Shown here one piece after another: positions 6,110 to 56,105 of a stretch of DNA of 64,000 bases (position 1 is its first letter; each line of letters starts with the position of its first letter). The notes below the pieces were generated by a model. The model was given only the letters and a program-made list of their open reading frames with translations. It made no database searches and was not told the DNA's origin. The stretch is taken from positions 124,001-188,000 of the forward strand of contig JAIWND010000020.1 in assembly GCA_025330725.1 (NCBI GenBank). The letters are read 5' to 3'. This stretch comes from Chlamydoabsidia padenii. Its lineage: Eukaryota; Mucoromycota; Mucoromycetes; Mucorales; Cunninghamellaceae. The position numbers were made by a program, and so were the translations under genes.

Positions 6110-7538
6110 AATTTAATAGATCGTGTAACTGGACAATCTAATATGATGATAACAAGAATGGTCGGTTAGGTCAGTTTACTTTATTATTATTATTATAAGA
6201 GCAGTAGTATTATTCGATTTACCTTCTATACCATACCAAAGTAAGGCAGAGAATACATAATTAACATTCTGTAAGAAGGATATATATATAAAATAGGACA
6301 TTTAGGGAAAAGACATACAGTTACCAACAAATTATTCAACAAACTTTATCTTTGTTTTACCTTGTATTCATTTGTCCCAACAATATTTGGTATTCCCCCC
6401 CCCCACCGACCTTGGTCTTTAATTTATCGCCTATTATAAAGAAGAAGAAAGTAAGTGAGTCATCAACCAAACGTTTACTCTTTCTTTTAAAACCTACCAG
6501 GTTATACATCAAGTTCAACCACGAATAGCTAGCTTGATAATCCATATAAGCACGCCTAGTTGCCAGTCTGTTTTTACAGTAGATCAATGACGAAAGCCTA
6601 CTTAGCCTAATGATGAAGAGGTTACCGTCAATAGAGTTAATATTCTGTCTGTAATTTTAAGAGACTTGCCTTTTTCAAAAGTCGCTATTCGTGAGATTTA
6701 AAAGGCATCAATAAACTACTTGCCAAAGAGATGTGTTGTGCGTATAAAGATGAAACCACCAATGTTATCAACTCGTTGGTTGGTTCCAGAAGAATGACGC
6801 CAACAACGAAGTAAACTAAACATAAAGAAAGTGTGAGCAAATAACTTCAACTTCTCTTTTCCTTTCCTTTTTTTACCTTTGGGTCTTCATCCAGTAATTA
6901 CAGTGCTTGGTTGGTCCCGTTGAAGTTAAGATTGATACATTTTGAAGTTGGAGCGAAAGAAAGGGATTTGGGATTTGAAAAAGATGGATAAAGACGGGGT
7001 CTAAAAAGTGTGGACAGATCATGCGAAACAGAAACAGAGAGACATGGTTTTAATCAGCGCTTTATTTGTATAAATAGTTATCAAGTATTACTGTCAAGTG
7101 TATAAACTCTTCATTTAAATTTATCGAATTTGTCTTGGATTCTAGTTTCTGCCCAAACTGATATGTATTTGAGTTGATTTTTGGAAAAGCAAATTGCCAG
7201 GCTTGAGAGTACATATTTTTTTTTTTGGTTGCATGACCAAAGATTTGTATAATTGGTAAATGGTATTGCGGAGAAGAAGAAAAAACAAGGACCAAGTCTT
7301 GTGTGGACTTCCATTGGCAAGCCAATGTCTAATAGCCAAAAGAAGAGAAAGAAAGAGAGAATGGGCAGCGGCATAGAATTAGAAGCCACCTGTTACACCT
7401 GGACATTTGCCTTCATATCTCGTTCCCCGACTTTTTAAACCTCGTTCTTATAGTAGTTTTTCAAATCCCGCGTATCTGTCCCGTTGCTTTTCGGAGTTTT
7501 TATTTTCCCCTTTCTTTCTCTCTTTTTTTCTCTTTCTA
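6110..7538. other. 1.4-kb intergenic region
   Basis: AT-rich sequence between divergent genes with poly-C (about 6395-6405) and scattered poly-T tracts. Short ORFs on both strands lack domain signatures, splice support or codon bias. A TTCAAATCCCG element lies at 7460-7470, close to the kinase start. Nothing else is recognised. Confidence 0.6.
7460..7470 (+). promoter_or_regulatory. TTCAAATCCCG element upstream of kinase gene
   Basis: Exact 11-mer ending 68 bp before the kinase ATG. The same 11-mer occurs at six other places in this window, three of them also 66-85 bp upstream of starts. Confidence 0.5.
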
Positions 7539-8937
7539 ATGAACTCCTTTTTTACTTCCATCGCCAACACTGTCAACACTGCAATCGATACTTACATCAA
7601 ACCTTCCTCAGAAACTTTTATCATCAATGATCAAACTTTGAAGAACATTAAACTTTTGGCAGAAGGGTAAGGGGAAAAAAACACAGGGACGCTAGTGGAC
7701 CCCATACTAACAGTACTTTATCATTCTTTATTGCCGTAGAGGATTCTCGCAAGTATATTTGACTCAAGACGATAAACATTGCGACTTTGCCGTCAAACGG
7801 ATTCCTTGTAAGATTGGAAAAGAACAACTCTTACTGGCAAAACGAGAAGTGGCTATCCAACGGCTCTTTCAACATGAATTCATTGTGCCTTTAATAGTAA
7901 GTGCTTGTTGATGAATTAATGAACACTATTATACTAACTTGTTCTTTTTAGAATTCTGCGGTTATAAAAGAACTTGATGGATCAAGGACCGTGTATGCGG
8001 TGATGCCCTTTTATAAAGTAATTACATATGTACAATCTCCCGCCAAAGAAAACTAATCACTTTTTTTTTTTTTTTTTTTTTTTTTTTTGAAACAGAGAGG
8101 CACTCTTCAAGATGTCATAGAAACCTATTCTTCTAATGGTCAACGATTCAAGGAAAGGCAGATTTATCGATTGTTTTTGGATATTGGTCAAGCACTACTT
8201 TTACTTCACACACATACAGGTCCTGGCATATCAATATCATCACAGCAGGAAGAAGGTAAAGGTGTAGCATGGTCACACCGTGATATAAAACCTGGGTAAG
8301 TGCGGTATGTGATAGTAGATCTGTAATCACTAAATCCATTCAATTTGTGTGTGGGGGGGGTGTAAACTAGGAATATTATGATCTCTAATACAGGCAAACC
8401 ACTCTTAATGGATTTCGGATCAGCTTATCCCGCCAAGATTGACATTTCGACAAAACAACAAGCAGCAAAACAACAGGATTTGGCAGAAGAGCATTCATCC
8501 ATGCCTTACCGATCACCAGAACTAATGAAAGTGGAGGTGGATTCTGTCCTTGATGAAAAAGTGGATATATGGTCTTTGGGATGTACCATGTTTACAATGG
8601 CCTACGGGGAATCACCGTTCGAATACCATATTAACAAACAAGGAGGTGGATCGTTGGCTTTGGCGGTACTTAATGGACAATATAGTTTTCCCGACACGAT
8701 CACTTACTCGGAAGATGTAAAGCGATTGATCACTTGGATGCTGACTGTAGATCCCCATGAACGGCCGTCTATTCAACAGGTATGGGGGGGGAAGAGTAAA
8801 GGATCAAATGGCGAGTATACTCACTTGTTTTGTTTGATATATATATATAGGTCTTGGAACGCTTGGAAACTCTCTTGGATTATTCTCCTCAAGAACAAGC
8901 AAAAGGTGGCAGGTCCGTTACTCCTTCAAAAGATTAG
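7539..8937 (+). CDS. Ser/Thr protein kinase, NAK family (STK16/Env7-like)
   Basis: Six exons (7539-7666, 7740-7896, 7952-8017, 8096-8295, 8371-8779, 8851-8937) give 348 residues. Kinase landmarks in order: glycine loop AEGGFSQVY, VAIK-type lysine in FAVKRIP, catalytic loop HRDIKPGNIMI (split by intron 4), metal-binding DFGSA, and YRSPEL in the activation/P+1 region. WSLGCTMFTMAYGESPFEY follows. The HRDxKPxNIxI...LMDFGSA pattern and compact length fit the NAK/STK16 group, which in yeast (Env7) is membrane-linked and acts in vacuole and secretory dynamics. The N-terminus lacks an obvious acylation motif. Intron 3 contains a long poly-T tract (about 8061-8088). A TTCAAATCCCG element lies upstream. 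Confidence 0.9.
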
Positions 8938-9657
8938 TTTTTTTACTCAATAGCCTTTAGAATTAGCTTTACTTTGTTATCATTAATTTAAATAATAAAT
9001 AATAAATCTATTCTTATTGAATAAAGGGAAAATGAAGTGATTATGTGATGGAATCGCATCATGCAGTAAAAAGACATACTTTATTTGACCCTAGAAAAGT
9101 GGGATTTCATTATTTGACTGATAAACTGCGTGCACCACGTAAGGAGAGAGTATTATATGTGTTCAAGATACCAATAAATCATCTGATTCATCTGTTGAGG
9201 TAGGTGATAGTAAAGAGAGAGAAAATAACCATTCTCTTACTGTCATGGTATCACTATCTCTTCACAATACGTTTCCATAGCACTTTTCATGAAATCCTCG
9301 ACTCACTCGGATGGAAAAGAGGAGTTTATTTGATAGGTCGCTAATTTGAAATCCCGAAACAAACCACGCTAATCCGTCTTATTTCTTTTTTGCCCAACTT
9401 CCTTTCGCTTTTTCTTTTTTTTTTTTTTCCACCTGGTCACAACTTTCTCCTTCAAATACTGTATACGCAGATTACCTCAACACAATCATACATTTACTAC
9501 ACACATACACATACATACACTCACACGTTAACGACTTCTTCATTTCACACTCGCTCTTCTCTCCATCAACTTTTTTTTAATATACTCTATTCCCCACTTC
9601 GTTTATTTCTTCTTTTTTTTTTTTTACTAGACTGTTTACTTATTACGTTTAACCAAC
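8938..9657. other. Intergenic region and NOT4 promoter/5' UTR
   Basis: AATAAT/AATAAA-like signals at about 8990-9005 suit kinase 3' end formation. A variant promoter motif, TTTGAAATCCCG, lies at 9345-9356. Long T-rich and CA-rich stretches (9410-9630) precede the NOT4 ATG. No gene is seen. Confidence 0.5.
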
Positions 9658-12600
9658 ATGATGTCGGACGATGAGGATATGGATTGTCCTCTTTGTATGG
9701 AAGAATTCGATATTGCGGATCGTAACTTCCGGCCTTGTCCCTGTGCCTACCAGGTAAGTTGCCTTTTTTAAAAATAAAAACAAAAACAAAAGTGACAGTT
9801 ACAACAAACAACTAATGGCATCCTTTTTTTTTTTTTTTTTTTTTTTTTCTTCTTCTTCTTCTTCCTTCCTAGATTTGTCGATTTTGTTGGCATCATATCA
9901 AAACTAATCTGAATGGTCGTTGTCCTGCTTGCCGTCGTCTTTACTCTGATCAAATTGTAGAATTCATACCTGTCAGCGCGGAAGAAATTCAAAAAAGCAA
10001 ACGGGAAAAGAAGGAAAAGGAACGCCATGAACGTGACATGAAGGATCCCAACCGTCGCCAACTGTCCAATGTTCGTGTGGTGCAGAAGAATTTGGTGTAT
10101 GTACTTGGTCTCAACTCGAAATATGCTAACGCAGAAGTAAGTAGCAGTCATGGATGGGGGAAGGGAGGGGAAAAGGCTTAAATGGTACTAACTTGTCTTT
10201 TAGAATGACTTTTTTAAAAAGTATGGCAAGATTATTAAACTGGTGGTCAGCAAGCGCCAACCCACTTCTACCGGTAGTACTTCTGCTAGTATTGGCATCT
10301 ATGTGACCTATGCTCGAAAAGAAGATGCTGCAAAGGCAATTGAAGAAATCAATGGTGCGGTTTGTGATGGGAAATCAGTCAGGTAAGAAACAAGTCGTTT
10401 ATCATGTACTATGTGACTCAATTTAACTCTGTATTTTATAGGGCGTCTTTTGGAACCACCAAATATTGCACCTACTTTTTGCGTCATATGCCTTGTCCAA
10501 ATCCTAATTGTATGTATCTTCATGAAGCAGGCGATGATGCTGACAGTTATAACAATGAAAATCCAACGGTTGGGTAAGTTCGAAATAAACTCACACGTAG
10601 TAATATATCAGAGTGTCTAACATGTTTTATGATTTATAGGACAAAACATGGTCATGGTGGAGTTACTGGCTATACTTATCCGAACAAACGTCCGGCAGCA
10701 AGCACATCATCGACAACCGTGGCTACTTCTGGCTCGGTGACAATACCTCCAGTTACAAAATCAGCATTGACGGTTTCGACATCAGAAACTGTGGTACAAC
10801 CGGCTCCTCCTCCAATTAAATCAGCATGGGCTCCTATTCCTAAAGTGGCACCTTCTCCAGCACCTGTACAAGAACCTACACCAGCACCTGTAGTTAATAC
10901 ACCCCATTCACCCTCTGCAACTTTAACCACAGCGACCAGTGAACACTCATCATCACCTACGACCTCGAAGTCGGGTGGTAAGCAACAGTTTACTTCTTCC
11001 AAATCGTCATCCAAACTATCATCATCATCTTCTTCTTCTTCTTCAACGACACAAAAGAAGCAGCCTGTATCCTTGTTATCTGCGTCTCTTTCTCAGCAAC
11101 AAAAACAAAAACCAGTGGATTCGGGTGCCAGCGACAATCGGGACCTCAAAACTAGTAACATCGACAAGGAAAACGAGAAACCGGCACTACCAGCAACGGC
11201 ATCATGGGCAAAAGGTGGTGGTCAAAACACACAAAGCACATCACTGACTCCGGATCATTTTGGCCCTTCACTATCGGATGCATTGACGACACCTCAAAAA
11301 CCTAAGCATGAATCATCCTCTTTACCTTCCTCATCTACTAGTCGCAAGAAGGACAAGAAGAAGGCCAAGATGGTATCGTTGAAAACATTTGAAGAACTTA
11401 CACGACAATCACCTACAAAAAAATCACCCTTGTCATCTAGTCCATTGAATGCAACTCTTAATAAAAAACAACAAGTTGGTGATGGAGGAGATGGGAAGAA
11501 GGACCTGGATGGCGATATCAACAAGGAACCAACAATCACCAAATCAGCTTGGGGAACTCTACCACCTCCCAAACCATCGACAATAGCGGTAACAGATAAT
11601 AAGCAGTCTGTAAGCACCACACCTGCTGATGATCCTGCGGATGCCAACAAACAGCAACAACAAGAACAAGAACCTGTGATGCATCATGACGACTCATTAA
11701 TAACAGCAGAAACTAACAACAAGGAATCTGATGTGATCAATGAAACAGCACCAGTGATGGATACAAAGGCAGTGATGGTCGAAGAAACGGAAATCAAATC
11801 ACCAGTAGTGGAACCTGCGACACTAGCTAATAGTGACGATGGGATGAATCTTGTGACGGCGGTGGCAACAAAGGATGAAATAGCACAGATACCATCTACG
11901 GCATTTACTTTATCTTTACAAGGCTCCTTGGAACTCACCCAACAACAATCTACCTCTACTGATGAAATCACTATAGAATCACCCAAAGTGAACGACAAGG
12001 TGGGATCCGATCAAGACTCTGTGGCATCTGAACAAATTGTGGACCAATCATATAGATCAATGGAGCAAGACAAAGAACCAGTGGATACATTACATCAAGA
12101 TGACGACGATGAAGCATTGGAGAAACACTTGTCAGACGAAGAACCTAATCACACTGATTCGACAGCAAATAATGTATTGGATATAATGTTTGCCGATGAT
12201 GTATTGGGTAGCGTGATGACGGATGACATGGTAGACAGCAATAGCGATTTTGCCAGTGATAACGACGAAATTGTCAAGGTGTTTGATGTTATTGGTCAAC
12301 AACAACATTCATTAGAATCACCATCAGCTTCAGAAAAGATCCAACAACAACAGCAACACCAGCAACAACAATCAACAACACCCACCATGGTCAACAATTA
12401 TGCGTCGCCATCACTATTCTCTTTGGCACAACCTATGCATGGCCAACAACCCATACCACCATTTTTACCTGATATGCAACACCTTCCTCGTCGTCATCAA
12501 GGTCCTCCTCCAGGTTTCCCTCCACCACCACCTGGCTGGTTACCACGTAACTTTGATCTCTTCCAAGGTCAAGACCCGGTATTGATTGCAGCTCGTCGAT

Positions 12601-13963
12601 TACAACACTCTCAACAAATGTTGGAAGCATCTGGACTATTCGGTTTTGGCGGACGACCACCTCATGGACATCCTCCTCCACCACCACCACCTCCTCCTCC
12701 TCCACCACCACCACCAGCACCACCAGCACCATTCAACTTTTCACCCCACTTTTCTAATGGTGGCCACCCTCCAGGCATGTTCTCAACACCGCCACCTCAT
12801 ATCACTCGACCAAACATGATGCCACCACTACCACAACAACAACCACAACCAATGATGCCACCCCCACCTCCACCACAACCATCAAATATTGGTACATCAT
12901 CACCTTTATTGTCGCAACATGAACAACAAGATGTGACACGACTTCGATCCGAATTCAATCAAATGCACCTGTCACCAGCTTCTTCATCCGATTCATTGAA
13001 AGCATTACCTCAATCACCATCTCACTCATCATCCACTCTACATCAACTTGCGTCGCCTTCCTTTTCTTCACCTCATCAACAAGCACCTTATGGTCAAGAA
13101 CAACCATTGAATGGGGAATATCAACTACGCAACGATCTTCGAGCGATGCTTCCAAATGCTAGTATTAGTTTTGGTCCGATGGGTAATATGCGAGAACCAT
13201 TGTCTCGTCCACATGGTGGTATGATGGCACCTCCACCTGGATTCCAACAAGATCAGCGACACATGTTACAACAACAACAGCCTTCTGGTGACAGGCGACA
13301 AGAAGCACAACACTTTTTTGGCGAATTCTTGAAAAATGCAGCCACTCATACAACGGAAAAGGATCATGGACATGAAGGTAGGAAAGCAAAATGACGATTA
13401 GATGGGGGTAACTCAAATGTGATATTTTTTTTTATTGGGGGGGGAGAGTAGGATCAGCACCATTCCATGACCCAGCGATCATGTCTGTGCGTGTTGCTGA
13501 ACGTGAAAAAGAAATGGAATCGAAACGATCATCACACTTTAATTCGTCGGGTTTCCCACCCCAAGAAAATGGATTCCCTGGAATGATACATCCTCCACCA
13601 TTTGGTATATCATCTCAACAACAACATCTTCAGACATTGCAACAACAACAACAATGGCAACAACAACAACAACAACAACAACAACAGCAACAACAAAATG
13701 GACCTTGTGGGATGATGATGCCTCCTCCGGGACTTTTTGATAGATTACCACCTGGAATGATGCCTACAGATATGAAGCAACAACAACAACAGCCTGATCC
13801 ATTCATGCAACAACCTCGCCCACCGCCACCTGGTTTGTTTGGTATGTCTCCCCATCAACATGCCCAACACCAGCAACATCTTCTCTTCCAACAGCAGCAG
13901 CAACAACAGCAACAGCAACAACATTTACAAAATCAACATCAACAACCCTACCCTCCCTTTTAG
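9658..13963 (+). CDS. NOT4: Not4/CNOT4-like RING E3 ubiquitin ligase of the CCR4-NOT complex
   Basis: Six exons (9658-9753, 9873-10136, 10204-10382, 10442-10573, 10640-13377, 13452-13963) give about 1306 residues. The N-terminus holds a C4C4 RING (MDCPLCMEEF...CPCAYQICRFCWHHI...CPACR), as in Not4. A linker coiled region (KREKKEKERHERDMKD) follows, then an RRM (NLVYVLGL... IYVTY) and a C3H1-type finger (CTYFLRHMPCPNPNCMYLH). This domain order is diagnostic. Not4 ubiquitinates ribosome-associated substrates and couples translation quality control to mRNA deadenylation. The remaining 1000 residues are low-complexity: Ser/Thr/Pro/Gln-rich with a proline run near 12680-12725 and glutamine runs near 13655-13695 and 13895-13925. 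Exons 1-4 are conserved while the tail appears expanded. Both RING and RRM are intact, so it should be functional. Confidence 0.95.
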
Positions 13964-30840: not shown

Positions 30841-30851
30841 TTCAAATCCCG
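30841..30851 (+). promoter_or_regulatory. TTCAAATCCCG element upstream of Kar5-like gene
   Basis: Exact 11-mer ending 85 bp before the ATG of the Kar5-like gene, the same spacing class as at the kinase, PABP and TPX2 genes. Confidence 0.5.
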
Positions 30852-33108: not shown

Positions 33109-33119
33109 CGGGATTTGAA
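33109..33119 (-). promoter_or_regulatory. TTCAAATCCCG element (reverse) upstream of PABP gene
   Basis: CGGGATTTGAA, the reverse complement of the recurrent 11-mer, ends 84 bp before the PABP ATG. Confidence 0.5.
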
Positions 33120-34930: not shown

Positions 34931-35797
34931 ATGGCTGAACAACTCACTTATCTTATTACTGGTGCTTCTCGTGGTCTTGGACTTGAATTCGTCAAACAGT
35001 TATCTGCCAAGGGTCATATTGTCATTGCCACCGCCCGCAATCCTCAAAAAGCCCCCGAATTGGTCTCTTTAATCGATTATGAAAAAGTCATTGGCGTCGC
35101 TTTAGATACTACCGATCTCGCCTCTGTCAAGGTAACAACAACAAGAAGAAATAAGCATCCATGGCTCACACTTTTTTGTATAGGCTGCCTTTGACAAAAT
35201 TCAAACGATTGCTCCTCATGGTATTGATGTCCTTATCAACAATTCTGGCATCTCGGGTTCTGGGGATCGCAATGTCCTCACAAGGTAAAGTGGCATTTCG
35301 CTCTACAGTTGGACTCACACGATTCTATAGCACTCCAGATGATTATTTGGAAGTATTCAAGACCAACGTGGTGGGCACGTCCAATGTGACTCAAGCCGCT
35401 TTACCCTTGTTACGCCAAAAACAAACTCGCAAGATCATCAACATTTCCTCAGTGGTGGGCTCGGTCACATTGAATGTCCATGGTAGCCACATGCCTCAGT
35501 ACGGGACGTCCAAGGCGGCTGAAAATTATATAACCAAGGCATTCTCGGTTGCACTTAAAGAGGAACACTTTGCCGTGCTTGCGTAAGTAGACACACACAC
35601 GAGGAGGGGGGGGAAGAATACTAACACGTTATGATCATAGACTTCATCCTGGTTGGGTCCAAACCGATATGGGTGGTAAAAAGGCTCCCTTGACGGCGGA
35701 TGTCTCCATTGCTGGCATGATTGAACAAATTGAAAAACTCACCGTGGACAAGACGGGTACTTTTATGGATTACAACGGTGACACTCTTCCTTATTAA
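34931..35797 (+). CDS. Short-chain dehydrogenase/reductase, copy 1
   Basis: Four exons (34931-35131, 35184-35284, 35331-35582, 35641-35797) give 236 residues. The NAD(P) loop TGASRGLGLEF (TGxxxGxG), LINNSG (NNxG), the catalytic Ser in NISSVVGSV, and a YGTSKAAENY (YxxxK) motif are all present. This is a classical SDR of the C-factor/sniffer-like type. The substrate is unknown. It is paralogous to the gene at 37737 with the same length and intron positions, except that the last coding part here is one uninterrupted exon. A variant promoter motif (TTAAACCCCCGC) lies about 80 bp upstream. Confidence 0.93.
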
Positions 35798-37736
35798 ATA
35801 GCTTTTATATATATACATGTATTGATTGTAATAAAAAAAAAAAACTCCTTGTTGTTGTAATGATTGTCTATGGTGGGGGGAAATGCTACATTAAATATGT
35901 TTAAACCCTCGCACACTGCGTGGTTTTGTGAATCAAAAACCTCTGCCATAGTGTATTTGCATAAATAGTCGAGATTCGCAAATAGGACTCGTCGAACCAA
36001 TCACGCCACCTGGTTATTGCGGATTTTGAAGCTCCTATTTGGGATCTTGGACTCTCAAGCAGAAACTTTCTATTTTAGAACGGTGTTTTAAACTGAAACG
36101 GCGCTTCAACTGATGCATGATCTATACAACGGACAGGTGTTTTGAGTATCTCGAATGTGGGAATGGCCGCCTCTTGATGTATCCTGAAGAAACATTGGTG
36201 GCTGAAGAAAGTTAATACTCCTTTTGTCAATGTGGTTTGCTGGCATCAACAACTCATTTCCCTTGCCGGAAATGCTATTACAAAAACCAATAACTTTTGG
36301 CAACAATCAGTCGATTTAGTTGGTTCATGCAAAACGTTGTCAATGGTACGCAATTTCAAACCTTCGGGTGCGGCGATCATCTAATGTTCCTTGGTTCTTT
36401 TTTTTTTTTTTTGATGGCAGATTAAATCATTGAATGATGGGAGAAGCTTCAAATACAACGAATCAAGGCATCTATTGAAATCGATCCAGCAACTGACACT
36501 CCTGTAGAGGTCCTCCATACTATTCTTCTTGGTATTGCAAAGTACTTGCTAACGTACCTTGTAAAAGACATTATAAAATGAAATCAACAGCTCATGACAC
36601 GCCTTCAAAAACAACTGGAACAGCAATCGAAATCACCCAGCTATTTCAGGAACTTGAGAAGAAAAATCCAGCAAGTTGGTTCCTTCCTCAGTCGGGATTT
36701 TAAACAACTGATCCAAATTCTTCCTGTGGCTCTTCAACTTGAATTTGGTACATACCTGTGGAAACGATACAAAACATTATCCCTTGCTTTTCTGCTTTGG
36801 GTGCTCTCTCCTCTCTCCTATTTGTTCGGTCCATTGAAAACGCGGCAAAAAAAAACGTTTAGAGTGCCGTATTCTTATCACAGATACGTGCCATGTCCGA
36901 TCGTTCCTTAACAATTGGCAAATTGTTCAAGTTGGGTGGGAAGCAATGCTACAAAATGGATACCTTCCACAACTACAACAATATTACTACAACGCTTACA
37001 CCCACAATCCAACGATTAGAATATCTGAAGCCAGAGATCATAATAGACATGGACAGGAGCACTGGGTTAAAGCACATTGCGAACACAGCAAAGTTTAGCG
37101 TACATTGGTTATTTTATCTTACTTTAACCTAATAAAGTAGATACATGTATCGCCCCTTACCAACTTTGAACAAAAAGTTTGTTTTTTTTTTGCATGAAAA
37201 GCGGATTTCCATTTTTTTGAAAAGCCGCCTGCCTTTGATTTCAAAGTTGCACAATGGAAAAAAAGTTCAAGGACAGATGGAGATGTTTGGCCAATGATGT
37301 TCATTCATTATAACTGGGTTTTATTTCCAGTATTAAGGCGCCGTTTTATTACCCATTACGAACCCCCATGAATAGTTTGTTTTTATTGTTTCGGGAAATA
37401 ATTTATCCGTGCTGGTATCCCAATAAAACACATGTGTAACCTCTCTTCTTGGAACGTTTTCCGACATGTATTCGTCATATTCTTTTCTTTCTTACACTTG
37501 CTTGATCTGGTTAAAAAACGAATATCTCCAAACTGGAAAGAGCCCGACATGGATTAGTAATGCATCGCCATTGTAGCATTGATTTACGAATACTAACACT
37601 ACATTGTTGGTACAGCATGATGGAAGAATGTTTAAACCCCGCAGTCCCGTGGTCCAGGTTATTATATAAACATGAAATCTGTCTCTCTCTCTCTCTTTTT
37701 TCTCTCCTTATCAAACAACTCTCTTTCTTTTAAACA
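35798..37736. other. Spacer between paralogous SDR genes
   Basis: 1.9 kb of sequence without an intact gene. Open stretches at 36594-36911 and 36893-37132 show no known domain and are interrupted. The motif variant TTTAAACCCCGC (37631-37642) sits upstream of SDR copy 2. A similar TTTAAACCCTCGC occurs at about 35900. Confidence 0.5.
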
Positions 37737-38718
37737 ATGTCTGAACAACTCACTTATCTTATTACTGGCGCTTCTCGCGGCCTTGGTCTTGAATTCATCA
37801 AGCAATTATCTGCCAAGGGCCATACTATCATTGCCACCGCTCGTAACCCTCACCAATCCGAAGCTTTGGTCTCATTGATCGATCAAAAAAAAGTCATTGG
37901 TGTCACTTTAGATACCACTGATATTGCCTCTGTCAAGGTAATAAAAAATAAAAAAGCTTGATGGCACATGGAACTCGAACACTTTTTATATATAGGCTGC
38001 TTTTGACAAGATTCAAACCATCGCTCCTCATGGTATTGATGTGCTTATCAACAACTCTGGCATTTCAGGTCCTCGTGACCAAGATGTACTTAATGCGTAA
38101 GTGGCACTTTTTTTGGGAGGATGGTGGTGGACCAACTTTTTTTTTTAAAAAAAAAAAACAACAAAATCTATAGCACCCCTGACAATTATTTGGATGTCTT
38201 CAATACCAATGTGGTGGGTACGTCCAATGTGACTCAAGCCGCTTTACCCTTGTTACGTCAAAAACAAACCCGTAAGATCATCAACATTTCCTCCATTCTT
38301 GGTTCCGTCTCGCTTAATCTGCAAGGCGCTGCTGCTCCTTATTATGGTGCTTCCAAGGCCGCTGAAAACTATGTGTCCAAGGCATTCTCCACTGCCCTCA
38401 AGGAAGAAAACTTTGCCGTGCTTGCGTAAGTGAGAAGGATACTACCACTACTCTGTGTATACTAACACCTTTTTTCTTTTTTTCTTTATTGTGTGGTCGA
38501 TAGGCTTCATCCTGGTTGGGTAAGTAGTAGAGGGGGATCCTGATTCGTGTGATTACTTATCTCTGTAATATGTATAGGTTAAAACTGATATGGGTGGTGA
38601 CATTGCTCCTTTGGAGGCACCTGAATCCATTGCTGGTATGATTGAACAAATCGATAAACTCACCGCGGACAAGACTGGTACTTTTATTGATTACCTTGGT
38701 GAAGCCATCGTTTATTAG
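37737..38718 (+). CDS. Short-chain dehydrogenase/reductase, copy 2
   Basis: Five exons (37737-37937, 37996-38096, 38174-38425, 38504-38519, 38578-38718) give 236 residues, aligned end to end with copy 1 without gaps. It has TGASRGLGLEF, LINNSG, NISSILGSV and YGASKAAENY. An extra 58-nt intron (38520-38577) splits the coding sequence right after HPGW, creating a 16-nt exon; copy 1 has continuous coding there. Both copies look functional. A (TC)n tract lies in the 5' UTR and a GTAATAAAC signal at 38751. Confidence 0.93.
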
Positions 38719-39149: not shown

Positions 39150-39160
39150 CGGGATTTGAA
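39150..39160 (-). promoter_or_regulatory. TTCAAATCCCG element (reverse) upstream of hydrolase
   Basis: Exact CGGGATTTGAA 222 bp before the hydrolase start and just outside the 100-bp tandem repeats. Confidence 0.4.
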
Positions 39161-40913: not shown

Positions 40914-42462
40914 TCATCGTTTCAGTCGTTTATCAGTAGCAAATTTTGGACTTTTAGGTACGGTCAACGCAACAGGCAAGTAGGGTGAGACAAAGGACTA
41001 GGAGACCGGAAAAAAGAAAAAGATAAGTGTGAGTATAACTAGATCCAAGCACTGCAAACCAACTTACATGTCCAGGTAAATGATGTGTCCATGTATCCAA
41101 GCCTTGTAAGGTATCTTCTTCTTTTTCTTCAAATGTAGATTGAATCACCGAAAAACGACGAGCAGGGACCAGTCTCCTTTGCTGTTGCGGTATAACCCAT
41201 TTCTTGCTCTTGCGATTCGCTTCACGTATCACTCTTTTCGCCCGTTCCATCGTGGTTTCCTTCCACATTGGTTTCTGATGTGATTTGACCTGATTAATGA
41301 GTTTTAATAATGGTGATGGATGTGATTTGATTCGAGCGATCAGTTGTAAAAGTGCCTCCGATGGTGGTGATGATGTTTTTGCTGCTTTTGGTGGCGGTCC
41401 TTGTTGATCCAGAGATCGTTTTCTTGATGGCGGTTCGTTTTGAGTCGTCGCCAAAGGAGTCGATACATCAGACTGTTGTATTGACGAATCCACATGCTGT
41501 GGTTCTTGTTGAGAGTGGATATCGTGTTTATGTAAAGTCTGATCTAACTCTATTTTTGATGATGGTTTTGGTATTGGTGATTTGAGAGTGACGCCCAGGA
41601 GAGGTAACTTGATGATATGCCTATAAGCCAATACTTCTTGTCCGTCCACAGTATGATCGCCTTGTTGGTCAGTGGTTTTTTGAATGGCATCAGTTGCAGG
41701 TGAAACGTCTTCTACAGGTGGTGGAGTTGATGATTCTTCATACTGTTGCCCTGTATTGTCTTTTTGTTCTGTATTGTCTTGTTGCTCTGTGGTGTATTGC
41801 TGTTCCGTGTCATCTTGTCGTTCCGTATTGTCTTGTCGTTCCGTATTGTCTTGTTGTTCTGTAATGTATTGTTGTTCTGTGATGTATTGTTGTTCTGTAA
41901 TGTATTGCGGTTCTGTGATGTATTGCGGTTCTTTATCTTCATGTTGAATAAGATTTGGCGAAGATGACCTGAGCCAAGGATCGTCATCCAGTTTATCATC
42001 AGAAAGTAAATAACCAGTGTCATCATCATTAAGGTGTTGAGTTTGTGCGATGCGTGTCTTTTTCTTGAGTTCCATTTTGATATCCCTCCGTTTTGATACT
42101 TGTTGTGATCGTCGCTGAGAAGGTGAATGAAGATAAACATCGGCAGTATAATTGACAGGAGGGTGATAACTAGTATTGTTTTTTAAAGAAAGTGTTTTTT
42201 CGACATGATGGGTTGTTAGTCCTTGATCATTTGTTGTTGTTGTTGTTGTTGGTGCAGTCAGGATACGTTGGGAGAAGAGAGAAGTGTTTTGTTGAGCTAT
42301 TTTTGAGAGGGATTAATTAATCTTTGGTCACTTTATTAGCTTTTGTTTCTCAATCTTACCAAACCATTCATCGCCAACATGGTTGTTTTCTTCTTCTGTT
42401 TTGGTGAAATCGTAATATCTTGGTGCATCAAATTGCCATAACGAGGGATTAGTGATTGCCAT
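40914..42462 (-). CDS. TPX2-like spindle assembly factor
   Basis: Three minus-strand exons (42462-42360, 42296-41068, 40997-40914) give 471 residues. The N-terminus LWQFDAPRYYDFT...DEWF matches the conserved start of TPX2 proteins (Aurora-binding region). The C-terminal exon ends LTVPKSPKFATDKRLKR, resembling the PxSPxF motif common to TPX2. The middle is Lys/Arg-rich (WKETTMERAKRVIREANRK) and could be microtubule- or importin-binding. Residues about 120-185 form a degenerate six-residue repeat (EQQYIT/EQQDNT type) encoded by an 18-bp minisatellite. TPX2 promotes Ran-dependent spindle microtubule nucleation. The protein is shorter than animal TPX2. It converges with the hydrolase gene. Confidence 0.8.
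41738..41936. repeat. 18-bp coding minisatellite in TPX2-like gene
   Basis: About eleven imperfect 18-bp units (TGTTCTGTRATGTATTGT type), encoding repeated six-residue blocks EQQYIT, EQQDNT and ERQDNT on the minus strand. Confidence 0.9.
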
Positions 42463-42528: not shown

Positions 42529-42539
42529 TTCAAATCCCG
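42529..42539 (+). promoter_or_regulatory. TTCAAATCCCG element upstream of TPX2-like gene
   Basis: Exact 11-mer 66 bp upstream of the TPX2 start codon (gene on minus strand), so it is reversed relative to transcription. It lies in the 219-bp gap to the MFS gene 3' end. Confidence 0.5.
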
Positions 42540-42681: not shown

Positions 42682-44327
42682 CTAGATTTCTAATTTTCTT
42701 TTACCATTGGGAATAAAAGTCCAAATCACTAGATCACAAAGAGAAGAGAGTCAGTTGATACTGAATCATGATACCAGTATCTGTTTGTTTTTTGTTTTTT
42801 TCTTACCTTGCATCACCACTGCACAAGCAAACCATGTCAACGGCATGTAAATAATACCAAGGAAGCCTAAAAAGAAGGGGGAGGGAAATAACCCAATGAG
42901 TTGTTCAAGAAGAATACCTTTTTTTAAAGAAAAATAAAATAAAAACCCCCTTACCGGCTATTTGTCCTGCAAGGAATGGGAAAAAAGCTGCACCACCAGC
43001 ACCAAACCTATACAAAAAGATATATATAAAAAAGGTTAAAAGTGATTCTAAAGTATACAATCGTGAGTGCCCTACGCAGCCATGAATCCAATGGCAGTAG
43101 CGTGCATATTTCTAGGAAGCACATTGGATGCCAAAGAGATACAAGATGGGAACATGGGACCTATGAAAAACCCAACAAGAATAATAAAACTCGAGTCCAT
43201 CCAAACATTGGGGATCAGATATACCAAAAGTAAAAGAGTAGCAGCAGTGATAGTGAAGACCGACACCATCAACTTTTCCCCATACTTCCCTGTAAACCAA
43301 CCCAGCACGAGGCGACCAATGGCTAGACCGGCCCAATAACCCGAAATGACATGACCCATATCGATGGGATCCCCATGCATACCTTCGGTCAAGTAAGAGT
43401 AGCCCCATCCACCAATACAGACCTCCACACCAGCATAAGTCAGAATATAGATCGCCCCAAGTAAAGTCATACGATTGAGAATAGCTTTGCGTCGTAAAGT
43501 ACTTGAATGTGTTTCGTCGTCGTCAGTCCTAGTGGTTGTCCCATCCAAATCCACGCCCCTGAAACCAATGGTAACTAGTATATAGTTGACGATAGCCACA
43601 CCTAATAGAAACACATAGATTCCCTTCCATGACATGTCGTGAGCCAATAAATAAGTGCCCACCAATGGAGAAATCATGGCACCCACACCATAGATAGCTA
43701 AAGAAAGAAAATGCGAATTAGTTTAGATGTAAAAGGGGTGAAGAGGGAATTGATTTTTTTTTTTTTTTTACCGTGAAGAATGTTTAGCATCAAGGTAGCC
43801 ATTGGTACATTGGCCACATACACATTGATAGCCCCATCCATCAATCCGAACCCACCACCCTGCATAATCATCGACAAGGCCATGATAGGGAACCCAAATC
43901 CTTGAGACATAACCATGTAAGCAAGAGCAATGGCCGTTGAACCCACATAAATTGTCCGTAATTGCCCCAATGTGTGTACCACATAACCATTACAAGCAGC
44001 TGCTAAAAAAAATCCTGCCGCGCCACACATGAAGAGTGTCGATACCGTACCATTGGATATACCATAGTATTCTTTCAATCGTGGAATGATCTATATCGAA
44101 AAAAAAGGATGAGTACATAGGATTTAAAGAAAAAATAACTAGTCCCTACTACTTACAATGCCCAAATTACCATCGTTCAAACCTGCAAACATGGCAATAA
44201 AGTTGGATGCGATCAAGGGACGAATATAAGGCTTCAGATCTTTCCATTTGACTTGAGCAGTTTGTGAAGATTCTAATAGGTGAGTTGATTCATCGGCTTG
44301 AGTATTATTTCCACCATCGTAAACCAT
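42682..44327 (-). CDS. MFS transporter (Bsc6/FucP-like)
   Basis: Six minus-strand exons (44327-44157, 44090-43772, 43697-43076, 43007-42955, 42866-42807, 42728-42682) give 423 residues with about 12 hydrophobic segments. Landmarks include IASNFIAMFAGLNDGNLGIIIPRLKEYY in TM1, MDGAINVYVANVP, GYWAGLAIGRLVLGWFTGKYGEK (MFS signature loop), and FGAGGAAFFPFLAGQIAG in TM11. An N-terminal acidic tail (DESTHLLESS) contains a dileucine-type signal, which suggests a vacuolar or endosomal location (inference). The Asp/Thr-rich loop near 245-265 lies between the two six-helix halves. Substrate unknown; similar fungal proteins have been linked to sugars or lipids. CGGGGTTTGAA, a variant of the promoter motif, lies about 205 bp upstream. 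Confidence 0.9.
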
Positions 44328-46601
44328 GTTGAACTAAAAGGGAAAGAAAGGGAAAGAAAAAGTTTACCCTTCCCCTCTTTTTTATTTTTTTCGGGCTGCG
44401 GAGTTATAAAAACAAGATTTAGGCATTCTCCACGAATCATCAAGGCCTTTGTAGATTGAAAGAAGGGGGAGGGAATAGTATGTAGGTAGTGTCGTCAAGG
44501 GGCACCAAGAAAGTGTTCCAAAAAGGATAGTATCGGGGTTTGAAAAAGTAGAAGAAGGTAGAGTAAACATCTTTGGCCCTTTTTCTCTTTTCTCTTTTTC
44601 TTTCTTAAATTCAATCAACCGAGGTAATCAAGAAGTAATCAATAGTCCTTTGAACATACTAAACATCTTCTTATTTTCCCGTCGACATTCTTTGTAGATG
44701 CACTTGTCCTGGGGGTGAACTTGTTCGATCCTTACCATCGAAACACGTCTTATCTTTAGTTGCGGAATGGAACCAAGGTTGATTATGTCATTTACGGATT
44801 AGTGCATCATGACAAGGTAATTCTAAGCTTGATGGTGACAAAGAATCTAGTGACCAGGGTCAAGTTTTGTTTATGATACTTACTCTTCCTTGTTTGACTT
44901 TATAGGATGCCTCTATGTTTGCCCGTTGGGTTTGGTGGTGGAAAAAAAAAATCTGGACCAGCTTGTACTCCTTGTACCGATATGGTTGGTTACTATCCAA
45001 TTAGTTATAAAAATAGATTAGGGAATGGATTTAAACTTTACTAACGATAGATTTGTACTCGCTAATAAAAAAAAAATATTGTTAACAAGATGGCTTGATA
45101 ACAACTATAGTGCCATAATGTATATATGCTGGGTGTTGTCTATTGGACTGATTCATTGTTTGTAGCCGCCTACAGGAAAGAAAAAAAAAAGTGCGGGGTT
45201 TGAATCTCGAAAAAATCCAGGTACACGCCAAGTTTTTTTGCTTGTTGACATTTATAACAAACAATCGTATATCATCGTTCCGTAAACATGTGTTTATTAA
45301 ATACGCTCGGATGACATGTTTTTAATCGACAAAAGTACTCCATATGAAATACCATTGATAGTAATCACCTTTCTTTTAGAGATCACCTATCATGTGAACT
45401 GTGCGTTCTGTTACACCCCTCATGAAAAGCTCATGCTTTAGTCTAACCATCATTTGATAATGATGACGATTCACAACCAGTGGCATTCCAAAAAAGGGAA
45501 AACTGGGGTTGCGGGTAACTGTTATAGATTTCTTTTTTAGTGGGAGTGCGGAGATTGTAAACCCCACTTTTGAGTTCATCACGGGAACCATTATCGATGT
45601 GAGCCAAGAGATCAACATCAGAAACAAGGTTTCTTTCATGGCGTGAAAGTTTGCCAAAAATTACTAGACCTTCAAATTGTCGGGATTTCGATTTTTTTAG
45701 TTTTGATCATACAAGTGGTACTTACGGAATGGTGAAAAAGGTGGTATTTAAGCAAATAGGAAAGACGATCTGGGTGCGGCTACGCAAAGAAAGAGAAAGG
45801 TGTTGTTTAGGTAACCAGCTAGTTATCATGGGACGCTACACATATGCTGGTGTTACTTTATTCATAGAGGACCTACCCACTATCAAATAGATCAAATCTA
45901 AAGTGGGTGATTTCGGATGAAATGATGGCGAGTGTATGCATAGTATCAGCAGTTATTTTCTCTCTCTCGCAAAATACCCTTTGACATGAGCTATAAATGA
46001 AAAGACGGTGATACAAGAACGAGTGGGTAAGCGCTCGAGCCAATAAAAAAAAATCGGACCCCTGAATTTCCCCCTCCTCGAGGCATGATTTATGCAGACA
46101 AAGGACTGTATTGATAGTTGGGTCGGGAACAAGAGACGATGTAACCCAAAATCATGGGGACGACGGAAGATGTCGATTTTTTTTCTCTCTCTCTCTCTCT
46201 CTCTCTCTCCATTGACATGACCAAGCTTACAAAAAAGAATCGGGATCTGTATGCACGGGATGGTTACTTTATAAGGGGGTGCGTAGATAGGGTAAACCTT
46301 CCAAGATTTGATGCCCATGACCCCCTCTTTCAAAAACTCCATCGACTCGTGATTCGTTTTTCAGGTGATGGCAACAAAAAAAAAGTTTTTCCATTACATG
46401 AGAAGGATCCACAAGAGAAAATTTCAGAGTAGGACAACATTGTATTCCCTCAAGGTGGCTTTTTTTAAGATACTAGTACATCTTACTTATTGGCACTATA
46501 AAAGACCTATAGTATTTCTTTTTTCTTTCTTTCTTTCTTTCTTCATCCTCATATCAGGTCCTCCTCTCATCTCGGGCATTTAATATTCATACTCCGACAA
46601 C
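44328..46601. other. 2.3-kb gene-poor region
   Basis: Short ORFs without signatures. Two exon-like pieces with a plausible intron (about 44746-44816, GT at 44817, AG near 44907) read LRNGTKVDYVIYGLVHHDK then DASMFARWVW and may be a decayed gene. Motif variants CGGGGTTTGAA occur at 44534 and 45194. A (TC)n run is at about 46184-46210. Nothing else is supported. Confidence 0.45.
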
Positions 46602-46736: not shown

Positions 46737-47599
46737 GTTGTCGTTTTGGTCGACATTTGAAAACAATACACACATACACATTTCATTATACACCCTGCAT
46801 AGCTTATCCCCCCACCTCTTTACCCATTATCTTTTTATATACATTCCTCTCTCTTTTTTTCATGTTTCCTTTCTAATAAAACTATACAACAAAAATTATT
46901 CCCATCATCAAATCAAATTGACTTTTTTTTTTTTTACTACCATGCCCACATGAAAATGTAAACCATTTAATTTCAAACTCAGCCGATGTCATCATCCTTC
47001 GTTCATGCAAAAGATCAATCCGTTTCCCCTGCTGTCATTCGAATCACCGTAGCCTTCTTCTTTCTCTTGTTCATGCACATTGAAATCCCGCTTTTGGTAA
47101 ACGCTGGGTTAAATAGAGCAGGAGCTTGGTATTTTTCGCTGACCCCTCTCTTTTACCAACACAAGTACATCCGTGTACCACTTTGGCGAACATGCCAAAT
47201 ATATATTCGTATTAAGAAAAAATCAGTGATCTAGAGCATTATCATCAAAAGGAAAGCAGTAGTAGAGCATAGAAACTGAATATTGTGATGCATAATGACA
47301 AACTCGACTTTTTTTTTTTTTTGGACGTTAACAATAGATGAAGGTCAATCAGCCAATCAGAGGCGAAGAAACTGGAGTTACAGGTAATGACGTTTGATCA
47401 ATGGTATCGCCTTGCACTGAGTCAAAGTGAGGTCGACCAATGAAATCGCTGGATTTCAATTTTGTCAGTTGCAGAAAAAAAAAAAGTGTGGGATAATTTA
47501 AAGGTGCACACTTTTTCCTCCTCTTTCACTTTTTTTTTTTTTTTTTCTTACTACTTACATTATATTTTTTTATTCCCCCCTCCCCCACTTTATCTACAA
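46737..47599. other. LEU1 upstream region
   Basis: Intergenic. A TTGAAATCCCG variant of the recurrent motif lies at 47080-47090. An 82-codon ORF at 46986-47234 has no signature. A long T-run (about 47530-47547) and C-rich leader directly precede the LEU1 ATG. Confidence 0.5.
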
Positions 47600-51713: not shown

Positions 51714-54345
51714 TTAATTTAGGGGAATGATCACCGAGCGGCCACGCATGGCACCTTGTGGGAAATCGACCTTGTAGTGTCTTGGTTTGCCAAAGGAGAC
51801 CGTGATGGTGGTAAAAGACAGAGATTGAGTCGGGTCACTAATACTTGCCACCCAACCCTGTTGTTGTTGCAAGACGATCGTCAATGGATGGATGGTGTCA
51901 ATAGATACCCATGGTAGTGTGATTGATCCAGGTGCCCAAAATGCCAATGCCAATGCATGATCCGATGGACTATAGGCTCCTCTGACCTGTTGAGAGGTAA
52001 TGAATTCCAATGGTGATGGTTGTTGGCCGAATGGTTGGACGAAATAAGTCAACGAGGAGGTGGTTGCCACAGTCGCCGACCAAATATCCACAGATTCATT
52101 ACCTTGAGAAGCACCGATGGATGACCAATTGCTGATCCGTGTGGATGATTCCAATGTGAGATTCACTGGGGTGTCAAACGAGTAGAGAGTATGATCATGG
52201 GCAAGTGTTGTCACATTCATATAATGTCCATTCTGTTGCTGTTGTATGCCGTTAATATAGATAGTGCCAGGTGGTTGTTGTTGTCTTCGTTGATCCAAAG
52301 TAGTTACTAGTGTCCCATTGGTTCTTGGATCCATATGTACCGCATATAACAAGGGGAAAAAGAAGAATGTCTTTTGCCACCCATAGTCATCATCATGATG
52401 TGGATCAGTGAAATTCATCACTGCCACTGCCACTTGTTGTTGTTCCAAGACAGCCGCGCCCACAAATGCCTCGTTACCATAAAATCGATTGGTCTGATTA
52501 CATGCTGCTGAGGGTAAAGTGAGTGTGGTGGATAAAATGGTGGTACCAGGTACATGATTCCAATCCCAAGCGCCAAAGATATCCATATAGTCGATTCCGT
52601 CGTGTCGATAAGTAAAAAGACTGCCATCGTTGAGTCGATACCCCATGAGGTTTTGTCCATTGAGGCATTCAGAGATGGTGGTGCGAGTCGATACCATTTT
52701 CAATGTCGTGACGAACCGAGATGATCGATGGACAAGATAATCGGCGTTCCAGAAATACCGAGTACCAGTCAATGTGTTGGTGGTATGATTGAGACGACCG
52801 ACGATGGATGTCAGTTGTAATGCAATTTCCTTATTGCCTGACCATCTTGTCGCCACCCTATCCAATTGCTGCATGTCCAATAGAATCCCCGCTGAGCCTT
52901 GTTGATCCGTCGATTTAAAAGAGATCATCCGAGACAAGGCACTATACTGCCACATCCAAGAAGACCGTAACCCCGTCGGCGCATTCACCATCATCCATTC
53001 GCTACCAGATAACAACGTCATAAATGCCGTCAGTGTCGTATTCGATGGGGACCACGTCGAGTCACCCATCATGTCATACATGGCCAAAAGATTCACCAGT
53101 TGGTCTTCGCCATAGTTGCCATTATAGAGTTGTTCACGATGGAACAAGTACGACCCATCGACTTGAATGCCATCTGAATGAGGAAGAGCAAACACAGCAT
53201 CACGGCTTGTACGATCCAGGCAATCTTGAATCAGGAGAGGATCTTGTAAAAGGAGGGCAAGGGTGATACCATTATATGCAACATGGGCAAGATTGGCGAG
53301 GCTGTAATGATCCACCACCGAATAAGAGCGTGAAGTAAACTTGATACAGTGAGATGTTTGTCTAGGTGAGAGTTTCTTGACAAGTAATAAACAAATGTTA
53401 CCGATATGTCGAGGAATGGAGATGACCTAGTTGGGAAGAAAAGAAAAAGTTGAGAAATAGTGAGCCGTCTTTTTTTTTTTTGTAAAAAGATTTCAAATCC
53501 CGCTTTTCTTTTCTTTTGTACCTGTGAATACCAAGTCAAGTTCCATAATCCCGGCGTGCCACAAGGACATTGTCCAGTACCAGGCAACATGACACAAGAT
53601 TTTTCATTAAAGTCGTGTTTAAACCAATAGTTAAGACCAAGTAAGATCTTTGATAATAGATCATCATCGTCTTCTTTCTGACTATACCATACAGAAGCCA
53701 TCGACTCTAAAGATCGAAGAAAAAAGTGTTGTTTAGAGTCCTTTCTTTAATTGTTGTTGTGTGTATGCTACCTAGACGTTCAAGGTGTTTTCGAGCAGGC
53801 CAATACGCTTTTCTAATGGGTGTATCCGAAAAAGGAAGAAAAAAACAAAACTGTAAATTCAAATACCGCCGTTCATGCGGGATTTTCTTTTACCTTGCTG
53901 AACAACCCGAAGTATAATCCACATCAGGCCATACTCCCGACTCATTCAAGGATAATTTCCTATATATATATATGTATGTATAAAGAAGAGGATGGATAAA
54001 GAATAAAGTGATAACGAAAAAAAAAAACCCCCTGGCTTACCAATCAGGTATATAATGTTGACTGACACTGACGGTGATCTTATTCTTATTGGTCAGAATG
54101 ACTGGTAAATCGGCCATGGTGATCCGAGTTTGATTGGCAAGAATGTGGATAGGCCATGGCGAAGCGTGAGGTAAATCATGGGATGGAACGAGTGGGATAT
54201 GGGTCCTAGTGGAAATAGACAAGGAGGTATCCCACCAGTACCAAAGAAAGAACAGGCAGACTATACCGAAACTTGACGAGTAGTAGTGTTTGATGGATAG
54301 GAAAGAAACAATACAAGTGACTAGGAACAATAATAGAATGATCAT
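51714..54345 (-). CDS. Polysaccharide lyase family 8 enzyme (chondroitin/hyaluronate lyase-like)
   Basis: Five minus-strand exons (54345-54041, 53959-53894, 53812-53772, 53706-53522, 53426-51714) give 769 residues. An N-terminal hydrophobic stretch (MIILLLFLVTCIVSF, with a second near LFFLWYWW) acts as signal or membrane anchor. The alpha/alpha-toroid part has SGVWPDVDYTSGCSARKAYWPARKHLERLE. The family core DGSYLFH...LYNGNYGED and the catalytic-region block WNADYLVHRSSRFVTTLKM...NGQNLMGYRLNDGSLFTY match PL8. The beta-sandwich C-half follows. PL8 enzymes cleave uronic-acid polysaccharides by beta-elimination; the substrate is not determinable. An earlier ATG at 54402 would add a poly-Phe stretch and is less likely. 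Intron 4 holds an exact TTCAAATCCCG (53492). Confidence 0.88.
53492..53502 (+). promoter_or_regulatory. TTCAAATCCCG copy inside an intron of the PL8 gene
   Basis: Exact 11-mer in intron 4. Related sequences (TTCAAATACCG at 53857, GCGGGATTTTC at about 53877) lie in intron 2. They may be incidental, or may mark an internal promoter. Confidence 0.3.
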
Positions 54346-54410: not shown

Positions 54411-54463
54411 GTAAAGTCGCTGATTTTGAATTTGATGTCGTGCAAGAAAATTGTGCGTTCAAC
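54411..54463 (+). repeat. 53-bp inverted repeat, left arm
   Basis: Pairs with 56801-56853 in inverted orientation (one mismatch, at arm position 35). It lies only 66 bp upstream of the PL8 start codon, so it is likely within that promoter or 5' UTR. Confidence 0.92.
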
Positions 54464-55116: not shown

Positions 55117-55548
55117 AATCATCTGACCCCATTGTCAACCGAGATTTGCAGAAAATCAATGTCATAAATGAGCTGGCAAGCGTGGATGGGGATATGCAAG
55201 GTAACACCATTCGTTAGTGGCTGATGTTTCATACTGACAGCAATTTTAGATCTATTGAAGGTCTTATCCACCTCTCAAAAAGTTTGTTTGACCACACTTG
55301 ATGCCGCAGGTCTTACAACCAGTGTGTATGACTTATCATCATTTTTACGGTGAGTAAAAAAAAAAATTGAAGCAAAACAATGAGCTAACTTTTAAAGTAT
55401 ATGGAATATATGAATGTGAAAAAAATTCTCGTGGATAACATTCCTCACACAAATGAAATACATGTAATAGATTGTGATGAAGCAAATGAATGGCCTGAAA
55501 AGCTTCAACTCTTTGACGGTCGAAATAAGCTTCATCAGCGATCAAAAT
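55117..55548 (+). pseudogene. Exon-like fragments of an unidentified gene
   Basis: A stretch at 55121-55200 reads PIVNRDLQKINVINELASVD and ends at a GT donor. After an AG near 55249 it resumes DLLKVLSTSQKVCLTTLDAA through VYDLSSFLR to another donor (about 55350). A further open piece, 55403-55548, reads MNVKKILVDNIPHTNEIHVI and onward to a stop. The pieces look like coding exons but cannot be joined into a full gene, and the family is not recognised. Confidence 0.35.
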
Positions 55549-55775
55549 AAGATTTATTCCCTTATAATAAAGCTCTTTAGTTCATATGTTTATCAAAACT
55601 TCATTATTTTTTACTCTATCATTGTTTCGCTTCTTTCAACTTGGCAGGACATTGGTGGTATTTCAAAGGTTCAAGTTCCAATGATTTTTTAGAGCAGAGG
55701 AATGGCTTTTTTGTGGATTTTCACAGTAGCAAATTTCAACGTTGTTTTTTTTGCAAATGACAAGTAAAAGTCATT

Positions 55776-56105
55776 GCAAGCTTGGACTGGCTGACACAAG
55801 GGTCTTTCTGCTTGACTTTTGCGGTAAAGTATGTTGGAAATGGGCCAAAGTGTTTACATGGTCACTTTAATCATTAGAATCGACTGGCAATTGAGCGAGT
55901 AGGGCTCCTTCCAACTCTAGGCGGGATTTGAAAACAAAGTGTGGTTCCCTTTTCTACAAAAGACAGCTCAGTGCAAACTTGGACTGACTGTCACGAGGGA
56001 CTCGGTGCTTTACTCTTGCGGTAAAGTATGTTGGAAATATGCCTTAGTATACACATTGCCACTTTGATCGATAGCATTTGTTAGCAATCGAGCGAGTAGT
56101 GCTCT
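55776..56105. repeat. Two 133-bp direct repeats, period 197 bp
   Basis: Copies at 55776-55908 and 55973-56105 share GCGGTAAAGTATGTTGGAAAT, CTTGGACTG and GAGCGAGTAG in order with moderate divergence. An exact CGGGATTTGAA (55922-55932) lies between them. Confidence 0.85.

Follow-up and report, generated by a model that had tools for sequence, protein, structure and literature searches.

What is a single 11-bp word, TTCAAATCCCG, doing in front of so many unrelated genes of the fungus Chlamydoabsidia padenii? The question comes from a 64-kb stretch of one contig (the window: the whole piece of DNA that was analyzed), for which a sequence-only reading had reported seven exact copies, four of them 66, 68, 84, and 85 bp from the starts of genes it named TPX2, kinase, PABP, and Kar5. 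All seven copies are present and all four distances are correct (Table 1), while 100 dinucleotide shuffles of the window give a mean of 0.06 copies and a maximum of 1. When at most one mismatch is tolerated, the window has 16 matches versus 1.91 expected. Since the word turns out to recur thousands of times in the genome and to lie just upstream of many unrelated genes, it is probably the landing site of a putative abundant promoter protein.

Table 1. Copies of the word, and one repeat, in the 64-kb window. For variants, distances run from the midpoint of the site to the predicted ATG.
Feature	Coordinates	Strand	Context
Exact element	7460..7470	+	68 bp upstream of kinase ATG 7539
Exact element	30841..30851	+	85 bp upstream of Kar5-like ATG 30937; divergent intergenic region
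Exact element	33109..33119	-	84 bp upstream of RRM/PABP-like ATG 33204
Exact element	39150..39160	-	Upstream of alpha/beta-hydrolase gene; candidate ATGs roughly 160-230 bp off
Exact element	42529..42539	+	66 bp upstream of ATG of gene 40914-42462 (presumed TPX2)
Exact element	53492..53502	+	Within predicted intron 53427-53521 of PL8 lyase gene
Exact element	55922..55932	-	Part of a decayed repeat unit; not a simple promoter copy
Decayed copy of dispersed repeat with ~240-bp units	55729..56106	-	Profile matches E 4e-11 to 1.5e-46
Variant TTGAAATCCCG	9346..9356	+	307 bp upstream of gene 9658-13963 (presumed NOT4)
Variant TTTAAACCCCG	37631..37641	+	101 bp upstream of SDR gene 37737-38718
Variant TTCAAACCCCG	44534..44544	-	212 bp upstream of predicted ATG of gene 43072-44327 (presumed MFS)
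Variant TTCAAACCCCG	45194..45204	-	Intergenic; nearest predicted ATG 872 bp away
Variant TTGAAATCCCG	47080..47090	+	515 bp upstream of LEU1-like ATG 47600

The variants said to precede NOT4, an SDR gene, MFS, and LEU1 were also located. Before the second SDR gene there is a similar sequence, as had been claimed, but it carries one extra C (TTTAAACCCCCGC). Variant TTCACATCCCG is present at 27780. The gene models are predictions, and in the window at least one start is wrong and one gene was missed: the predicted start of the Kar5-like gene was placed downstream of ATG 30937, the upstream ATG opening a hydrophobic leader, and the alpha/beta-hydrolase gene near 39150 was overlooked by the gene finder. 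The kinase gene downstream of the site at 7460 has a Pfam Pkinase match in exon 8372-8779. The names TPX2, Kar5, NOT4, CMS1, and MFS for genes in the window are assumed, and no Pfam match was found for a TPX2 or Kar5 identity. The MET6 encoded in the window is identical to a C. padenii protein, which places the window in a Mucorales genome. Separately, 41 matches to the proteasome family were located in the genome.

Abundance and make-up of the word

A genome-wide count, which had been suggested as a check, finds 3811 exact copies of TTCAAATCCCG versus 2 for the reversed word. The degenerate form TTBAAAHCCCG has 8469 copies versus 82 reversed. We performed the positional analysis on a sample of 264 kb carrying predicted genes, with 81 degenerate and 35 exact sites, and in those 264 kb TTCAAATCCCG is the top-scoring 11-mer once simple repeats are set aside.

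The full site spans about 13-14 bp, WTTT[C>T>G]AAA[T>C>A]CCCGM, with the word as its core; it is asymmetric and sequence-specific. Counts of single substitutions, used in place of a matrix EM refinement that drifted to poly-T, indicate that substitution is tolerated at word positions 3 and 7, less at 8, and hardly at all in the CCG at positions 9-11. The 5′ flank is A/T-rich, and in 30 of the 32 non-repeat exact sites a T or A precedes TTC.

The letters of the word are identical to those of a common tRNA T-arm, and papers that contain the word include tRNA papers. Could the word be a Pol III B box, or an extra-TFIIIC site?

In a tRNA B box, GG comes before TTC, one C is invariant, and the middle base is free. 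The element nearly always has T or A where the B box has its G; position 3, the invariant C of the B box, varies here, and where the B box leaves its base free, the element has a nearly fixed A. No tRNA was found in the 64-kb window, and Rfam gave no match in the five sources searched. Given the flanks, the substitution pattern, the tRNA-free window, and the lack of an Rfam match, we reject the B box, which has scarcely any probability left.

We also rejected a palindromic dimer site, an idea that came from a single pair of overlapping sites. Zn2Cys6 proteins of the Gal4 type have sites of the form CGG-N11-CCG. The element shares with them one CCG end, and a full palindrome, CGGGDTTTNAAAHCCCG, would match their spacing. 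The element, however, is asymmetric: there are just 4 distinct palindromic places genome-wide versus 8469 sites, and none of the 32 exact non-repeat sites matches even 2 of the 4 CGGG letters at the Gal4-type spacing.

A promoter-proximal peak in either orientation

Non-repeat degenerate sites in the 264 kb peak 50-200 bp upstream of ATGs, where we find 19 of them (1.53/kb), versus a single one (0.08/kb) within 200 bp past stops. The sequence-only reading would have lost its footing had upstream enrichment been missing genome-wide, and in these 264 kb we observe enrichment. Considering intergenic non-repeat sites alone, 19 of 58 fall at 50-200 bp upstream versus 7.1 expected (p 4e-5); for the exact word, it is 11 of 25 non-repeat sites versus 3.1 (p 8e-5). 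Exons hold 5 sites (0.037/kb), a low rate, yet above that of the reversed control. A T/C-rich, G-poor tract extends from about -80 to the ATG, and the element sits above this tract and is scarce in the 50 bp immediately upstream of ATGs. In a 40-kb hold-out, 2 of 7 sites have a predicted start no more than 250 bp downstream, a weak result.

About a quarter of the genes (22/90) have the element within 200 bp upstream, when shuffled patterns give a mean of 0.03 and a maximum of 2. These genes are functionally mixed, with varied Pfam families. Orientation is free: relative to the gene, 12 sites have the same orientation and 9 the opposite one, with 6 and 6 for the exact word. Within the first 200 bp, distances to the ATG go from 45 to 179 bp.

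A general core-promoter or activator element is what the sequence-only reading had proposed. The element is indeed genome-wide and, in the sample, strongly enriched upstream of genes; "core promoter" is doubtful because of the free orientation, the 45-179 bp spread, and the presence in 22 of 90 genes. A directional element of the basal Pol II machinery, at a fixed distance from the transcription start, could produce the peak at 50-200 bp and the few sites at 0-50 bp, but neither the two orientations nor the variable distance and limited gene share, and we consider it quite unlikely.

The type of intergenic region also matters. Among short regions (up to 1 kb), the element is present in 8 of 11 divergent, 9 of 30 tandem, and 2 of 17 convergent ones (divergent versus convergent, p 0.0018). 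Two divergent promoters of 171 and 176 bp have one site each, near the middle. Of 4 convergent regions longer than 1 kb, 3 contain sites when those in repeats are counted. Other intergenic DNA holds 27 of the 65 non-repeat sites (0.50/kb), and 10 more are found at 200-500 bp. These sites away from promoters, together with the A/T-rich 5′ flank, are what one would expect of a chromatin or replication element (an organizer of nucleosome-free regions, a boundary, an origin site) that is intergenic and prefers promoters incidentally. Against this, the rate at 50-200 bp upstream is threefold that of other intergenic DNA, sites nearly vanish after stops, and short divergent regions are favored over convergent ones. 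We regard such an element as unlikely.

Copies in a dispersed repeat

The element is also present in a dispersed repeat with units of about 240 bp, which contains 16 of the 81 degenerate and 6 of the 35 exact sampled sites. Repeat-profile matches at E<0.01 touch 19 of the 81 if three weak ones are kept. One weak match (E 1.5e-4) is at the site at 33109, and we read it as caused by the motif itself. At 478 places in the genome, the element is accompanied by a second conserved box.

Did the word then spread with a repeat or transposon, with no promoter role of its own? Membership in a transposon family, which the sequence-only reading had named as fatal to its proposal, does apply to 16 of the 81 sampled sites and to the window site at 55922. 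It does not apply to the other 65, whose flanks are not homologous to the ~240-bp family; a 2.5-kb stretch with four non-repeat sites is single-copy. The upstream peak is present in the non-repeat sites alone, and the repeat share of the 8469 sites is, by extrapolation, about 9%. With homologous flanks in only 16 of 81, we reject a repeat-only origin for most sampled sites, and as a general account it is very improbable.

Candidate binding proteins

The reverse complement of the word contains TTTGAA, next to a GC-rich block. A composite site similar to the CDE/CHR of DREAM/MuvB (GCGGGA beside TTTGAA) would be bound by E2F/DP together with a LIN54-type MuvB protein. According to PMC4974476, the LIN54 consensus is TTYRAA, and the CDE is SGCGCS, four bp from the CHR. 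Position 3 is C or T in 61 of 72 non-repeat sites, which therefore fit TTYRAA, and the genome has six matches to E2F/DP domains. On the other hand, 11 of the 72 have TTGAAA, outside that consensus; the GC block is CGGG instead of SGCGCS, and lies one base from TTTGAA instead of four (PMC4974476). A quarter or so of genes, with mixed functions, is too broad for a cell-cycle regulon. Searches for a LIN54/Tesmin protein, which had no working positive control, gave no match in the genome. The CDE/CHR reading is weakened, and we find it improbable.

We think it reasonably likely that the word is an asymmetric site for a putative abundant promoter-binding protein, acting like the general regulatory factors of yeast. 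Those factors, Reb1, Abf1, and Rap1, each have one long specific site that occurs in many unrelated promoters, near the start and free of orientation; the Reb1 site is TTACCCG. The element is likewise near the start of many unrelated genes in both orientations, and its CCCG end recalls the Reb1 site. It differs in its sequence (TTNAAAHCCCG) and in its presence also in a repeat family. In this proposal, the element would be bound, whichever way it points, by an abundant sequence-specific protein; the place of binding would be the promoter, immediately above the pyrimidine-rich stretch before the start codon. Once bound, the protein may keep promoters open and support the transcription of many unrelated genes, and one site could serve both genes of a divergent pair.

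In the titles and abstract openings of open-licence PMC papers, we found no described fungal element matching the word, in agreement with the sequence-only reading, nor any comparable promoter element in early-diverging fungi. A more ambitious proposal, which we advance tentatively and hold as possible, is that of a new, putative Mucorales general regulatory factor, whose site, WTTTCAAATCCCGM, organizes at least a quarter of promoters, with a repeat family that exploits the factor and has helped seed regulatory sites genome-wide.

An 11-bp word that exceeds its reversed control about 100-fold, recurs at thousands of places, and lies near a quarter of the starts in the sample offers a direct way to search for a major promoter-binding protein in this lineage. 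With it, one would be able to ask whether yeast-type general regulatory factors follow a broader fungal rule, realized by different proteins. And in the repeat copies, nature provides an example of a dispersed sequence that shares the promoter code of its host.

Placement relative to genes

All seven window copies of TTCAAATCCCG lie where the sequence-only reading had put them, against a mean of 0.06 in dinucleotide shuffles, and allowing one mismatch gives 16 copies versus 1.91 expected. The distances it reported to four genes (66, 68, 84, and 85 bp) are also correct; for the gene it named Kar5, the gene finder's start is too far downstream, and the ATG at 30937 begins a hydrophobic leader. 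Over 264 kb (the window plus C1:1-200000, from another contig of the same genome), TTCAAATCCCG is the top-scoring 11-mer, simple repeats aside, and we find 35 exact sites and 81 matches to the degenerate pattern TTBAAAHCCCG. This pattern was picked from a single-substitution table, excluding tolerated position-8 changes and A at position 3, and it derives from the same 264 kb used for placement, but without regard to genes.

With repeat-borne sites (16 degenerate, 6 exact) set aside, 65 degenerate sites were placed relative to 91 predicted genes.

Placement of the 65 non-repeat degenerate sites in 264 kb
Class	Sites	Sites per kb
0-50 bp upstream of ATG	1	
50-200 bp upstream of ATG	19	1.53
200-500 bp upstream of ATG	10	
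Up to 200 bp after stop	1	0.08
Other intergenic DNA	27	0.50
Exons	5	0.037
Introns	2	

The 50-200 bp class holds 19 of the 58 intergenic sites versus 7.1 expected (p 4e-5); restricted to exact copies, it holds 11 of 25 versus 3.1 (p 8e-5). Among intergenic regions of at most 1 kb, a site is borne by 8/11 divergent, 9/30 tandem, and 2/17 convergent ones (divergent versus convergent, p 0.0018), but regions above 1 kb break that order (convergent 3/4, divergent 5/10, tandem 13/17, repeat sites counted). Of the 90 genes in the first gene set, 22 carry a site no more than 200 bp upstream and 26 no more than 300 bp; the corresponding means over 300 column-shuffled patterns are 0.03 and 0.04 genes. 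Site orientation relative to the gene is the same in 12 cases and opposite in 9.

The roughly 80 bases that precede the predicted ATGs of the 91 genes form a marked T/C-rich, G-poor tract. Counting both strands, AAATCCCG occurs upstream in 21/91 genes and downstream in 2/91; together with the overlapping CAAATCCC, it is the only top upstream 8-mer that is not a purine/pyrimidine run.

Two observations count against an element confined to promoters: the exon rate, although low, still exceeds the genome-wide rate of the reversed control (82 in 34.2 Mb), and other intergenic DNA is site-rich, even if some of those sites actually adjoin missed genes (window site 39150, for example). Four more 10-kb pieces, held out, contain 7 degenerate sites (one piece has none): 2 lie upstream of a predicted start at no more than 250 bp from it, 1 lies 72 bp into a predicted first exon, and 4 are elsewhere, two of these overlapping as one palindromic pair. 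The small test lends weak support to upstream placement. The palindromic double site CGGGDTTTNAAAHCCCG at L035:413-429 (G000:C5:300413-300429, on a further contig) is one of only four genome-wide.

Genome-wide abundance and a dispersed repeat

All results here come from a single genome (34.23 Mb, 95 contigs; the window is contig 13, 124001-188000). It holds 1909 + 1902 copies of the exact word versus 1 + 1 of the reversed word, and 4249 + 4220 of the degenerate pattern versus 37 + 45 reversed. The flanks of 72 non-repeat sites, from the 264 kb plus the held-out pieces, give a wider consensus, roughly WTTT[C>T>G]AAA[T>C>A]CCCGM.

Comparing site flanks also uncovered related units of ~240 bp, arranged in tandem arrays (for instance at L015:2760-3693). 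Every unit combines the element with another conserved box, GATGCTAATGA.

Locations of the dispersed ~240-bp repeat superfamily (L, pieces of the same genome)
Feature	Location
Repeat units	L015:2760-3693
Repeat units	L009:9456-9965
Repeat units	L017:3234-4401
Repeat units	window 55729-56106

Window site 55922 falls within such a unit. One repeat query is matched by 134 pieces; another has long matches at all 40 places scored, of 579 candidates (query included). A profile of 14 units reaches 19/81 degenerate and 8/35 exact sites in the 264 kb at E<0.01, of which three weak matches (window 33109, C1 88551, C1 89437) were kept as motif-only. Element plus box, 35-65 bp apart, occur at 478 places genome-wide (control, 0), and 10 of the 16 repeat-borne sites are among the places listed. 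Extrapolated from these two figures, repeat-borne sites would number some 765 genome-wide, or roughly 9% of the 8469 degenerate sites, versus 20% in the 264-kb sample. A 2.5-kb stretch bearing four non-repeat sites is single-copy. Several repeat matches are oppositely oriented and separated by a few hundred bases; the repeat may be a satellite or the terminal repeats of a mobile element.

Gene models

The gene finder was self-trained on the sequence, and genes and starts are predictions from sequence; it reproduced MET6 (769 aa, three exons) letter for letter. The window MET6 (61190-63635) is 100% identical to a Chlamydoabsidia padenii protein, with other high-ranking named matches coming from other Mucorales. 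Three further proteins named Chlamydoabsidia padenii have 83-86% identity and may be paralogues or come from other assemblies. Separately, a predicted 147-aa piece at window 802-1289 (-) has a YIGIDPG...-like stretch, which we take to be reminiscent of a TnpB/Fanzor-type transposase fragment; it has no Pfam match.

Genes carrying the element and its possible role

For 20 of the 22 genes whose site is at most 200 bp upstream, the longest exon was searched in Pfam (one exon clipped at a piece boundary). Thirteen have a match with an E-value of at most 0.001. Two of these matches, Pyr_redox_2 and LRR_9, fall under the curated cut-off; among the rest are Ric8, Tom22, TrkH, syntaxin-18, Vps53, CSN8/PSMD8/EIF3K, Ctr, mitochondrial carrier, protein kinase, RRM, and short-chain dehydrogenase. 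No common pathway is visible by Pfam among these 20 genes.

The element is long, asymmetric, and orientation-free; it is most concentrated a short way upstream of genes and scarce in coding and directly adjoining 3′ DNA. A putative protein would bind it and open or activate promoters. The genome encodes E2F/DP domains (6 matches), and searches run without a positive control gave no match to a LIN54-type protein. The LIN54 consensus is TTYRAA, with a CDE spacing of four bases (PMC4974476). Among titles and abstract openings of open-licence PMC literature, the word occurs in 10 papers and its complement in 8, none of them a promoter-motif study, and we found nothing relevant on promoters of Mucorales or early-diverging fungi or on the 8-mer core in fungal motifs.

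Two neighbouring genes resembling short-chain dehydrogenases (window 34931-35797 and 37737-38718) are apparent tandem duplicates. TTTAAACCCCG lies upstream of the second, and the first has a version with one extra C; the two versions make a natural pair for promoter comparison.
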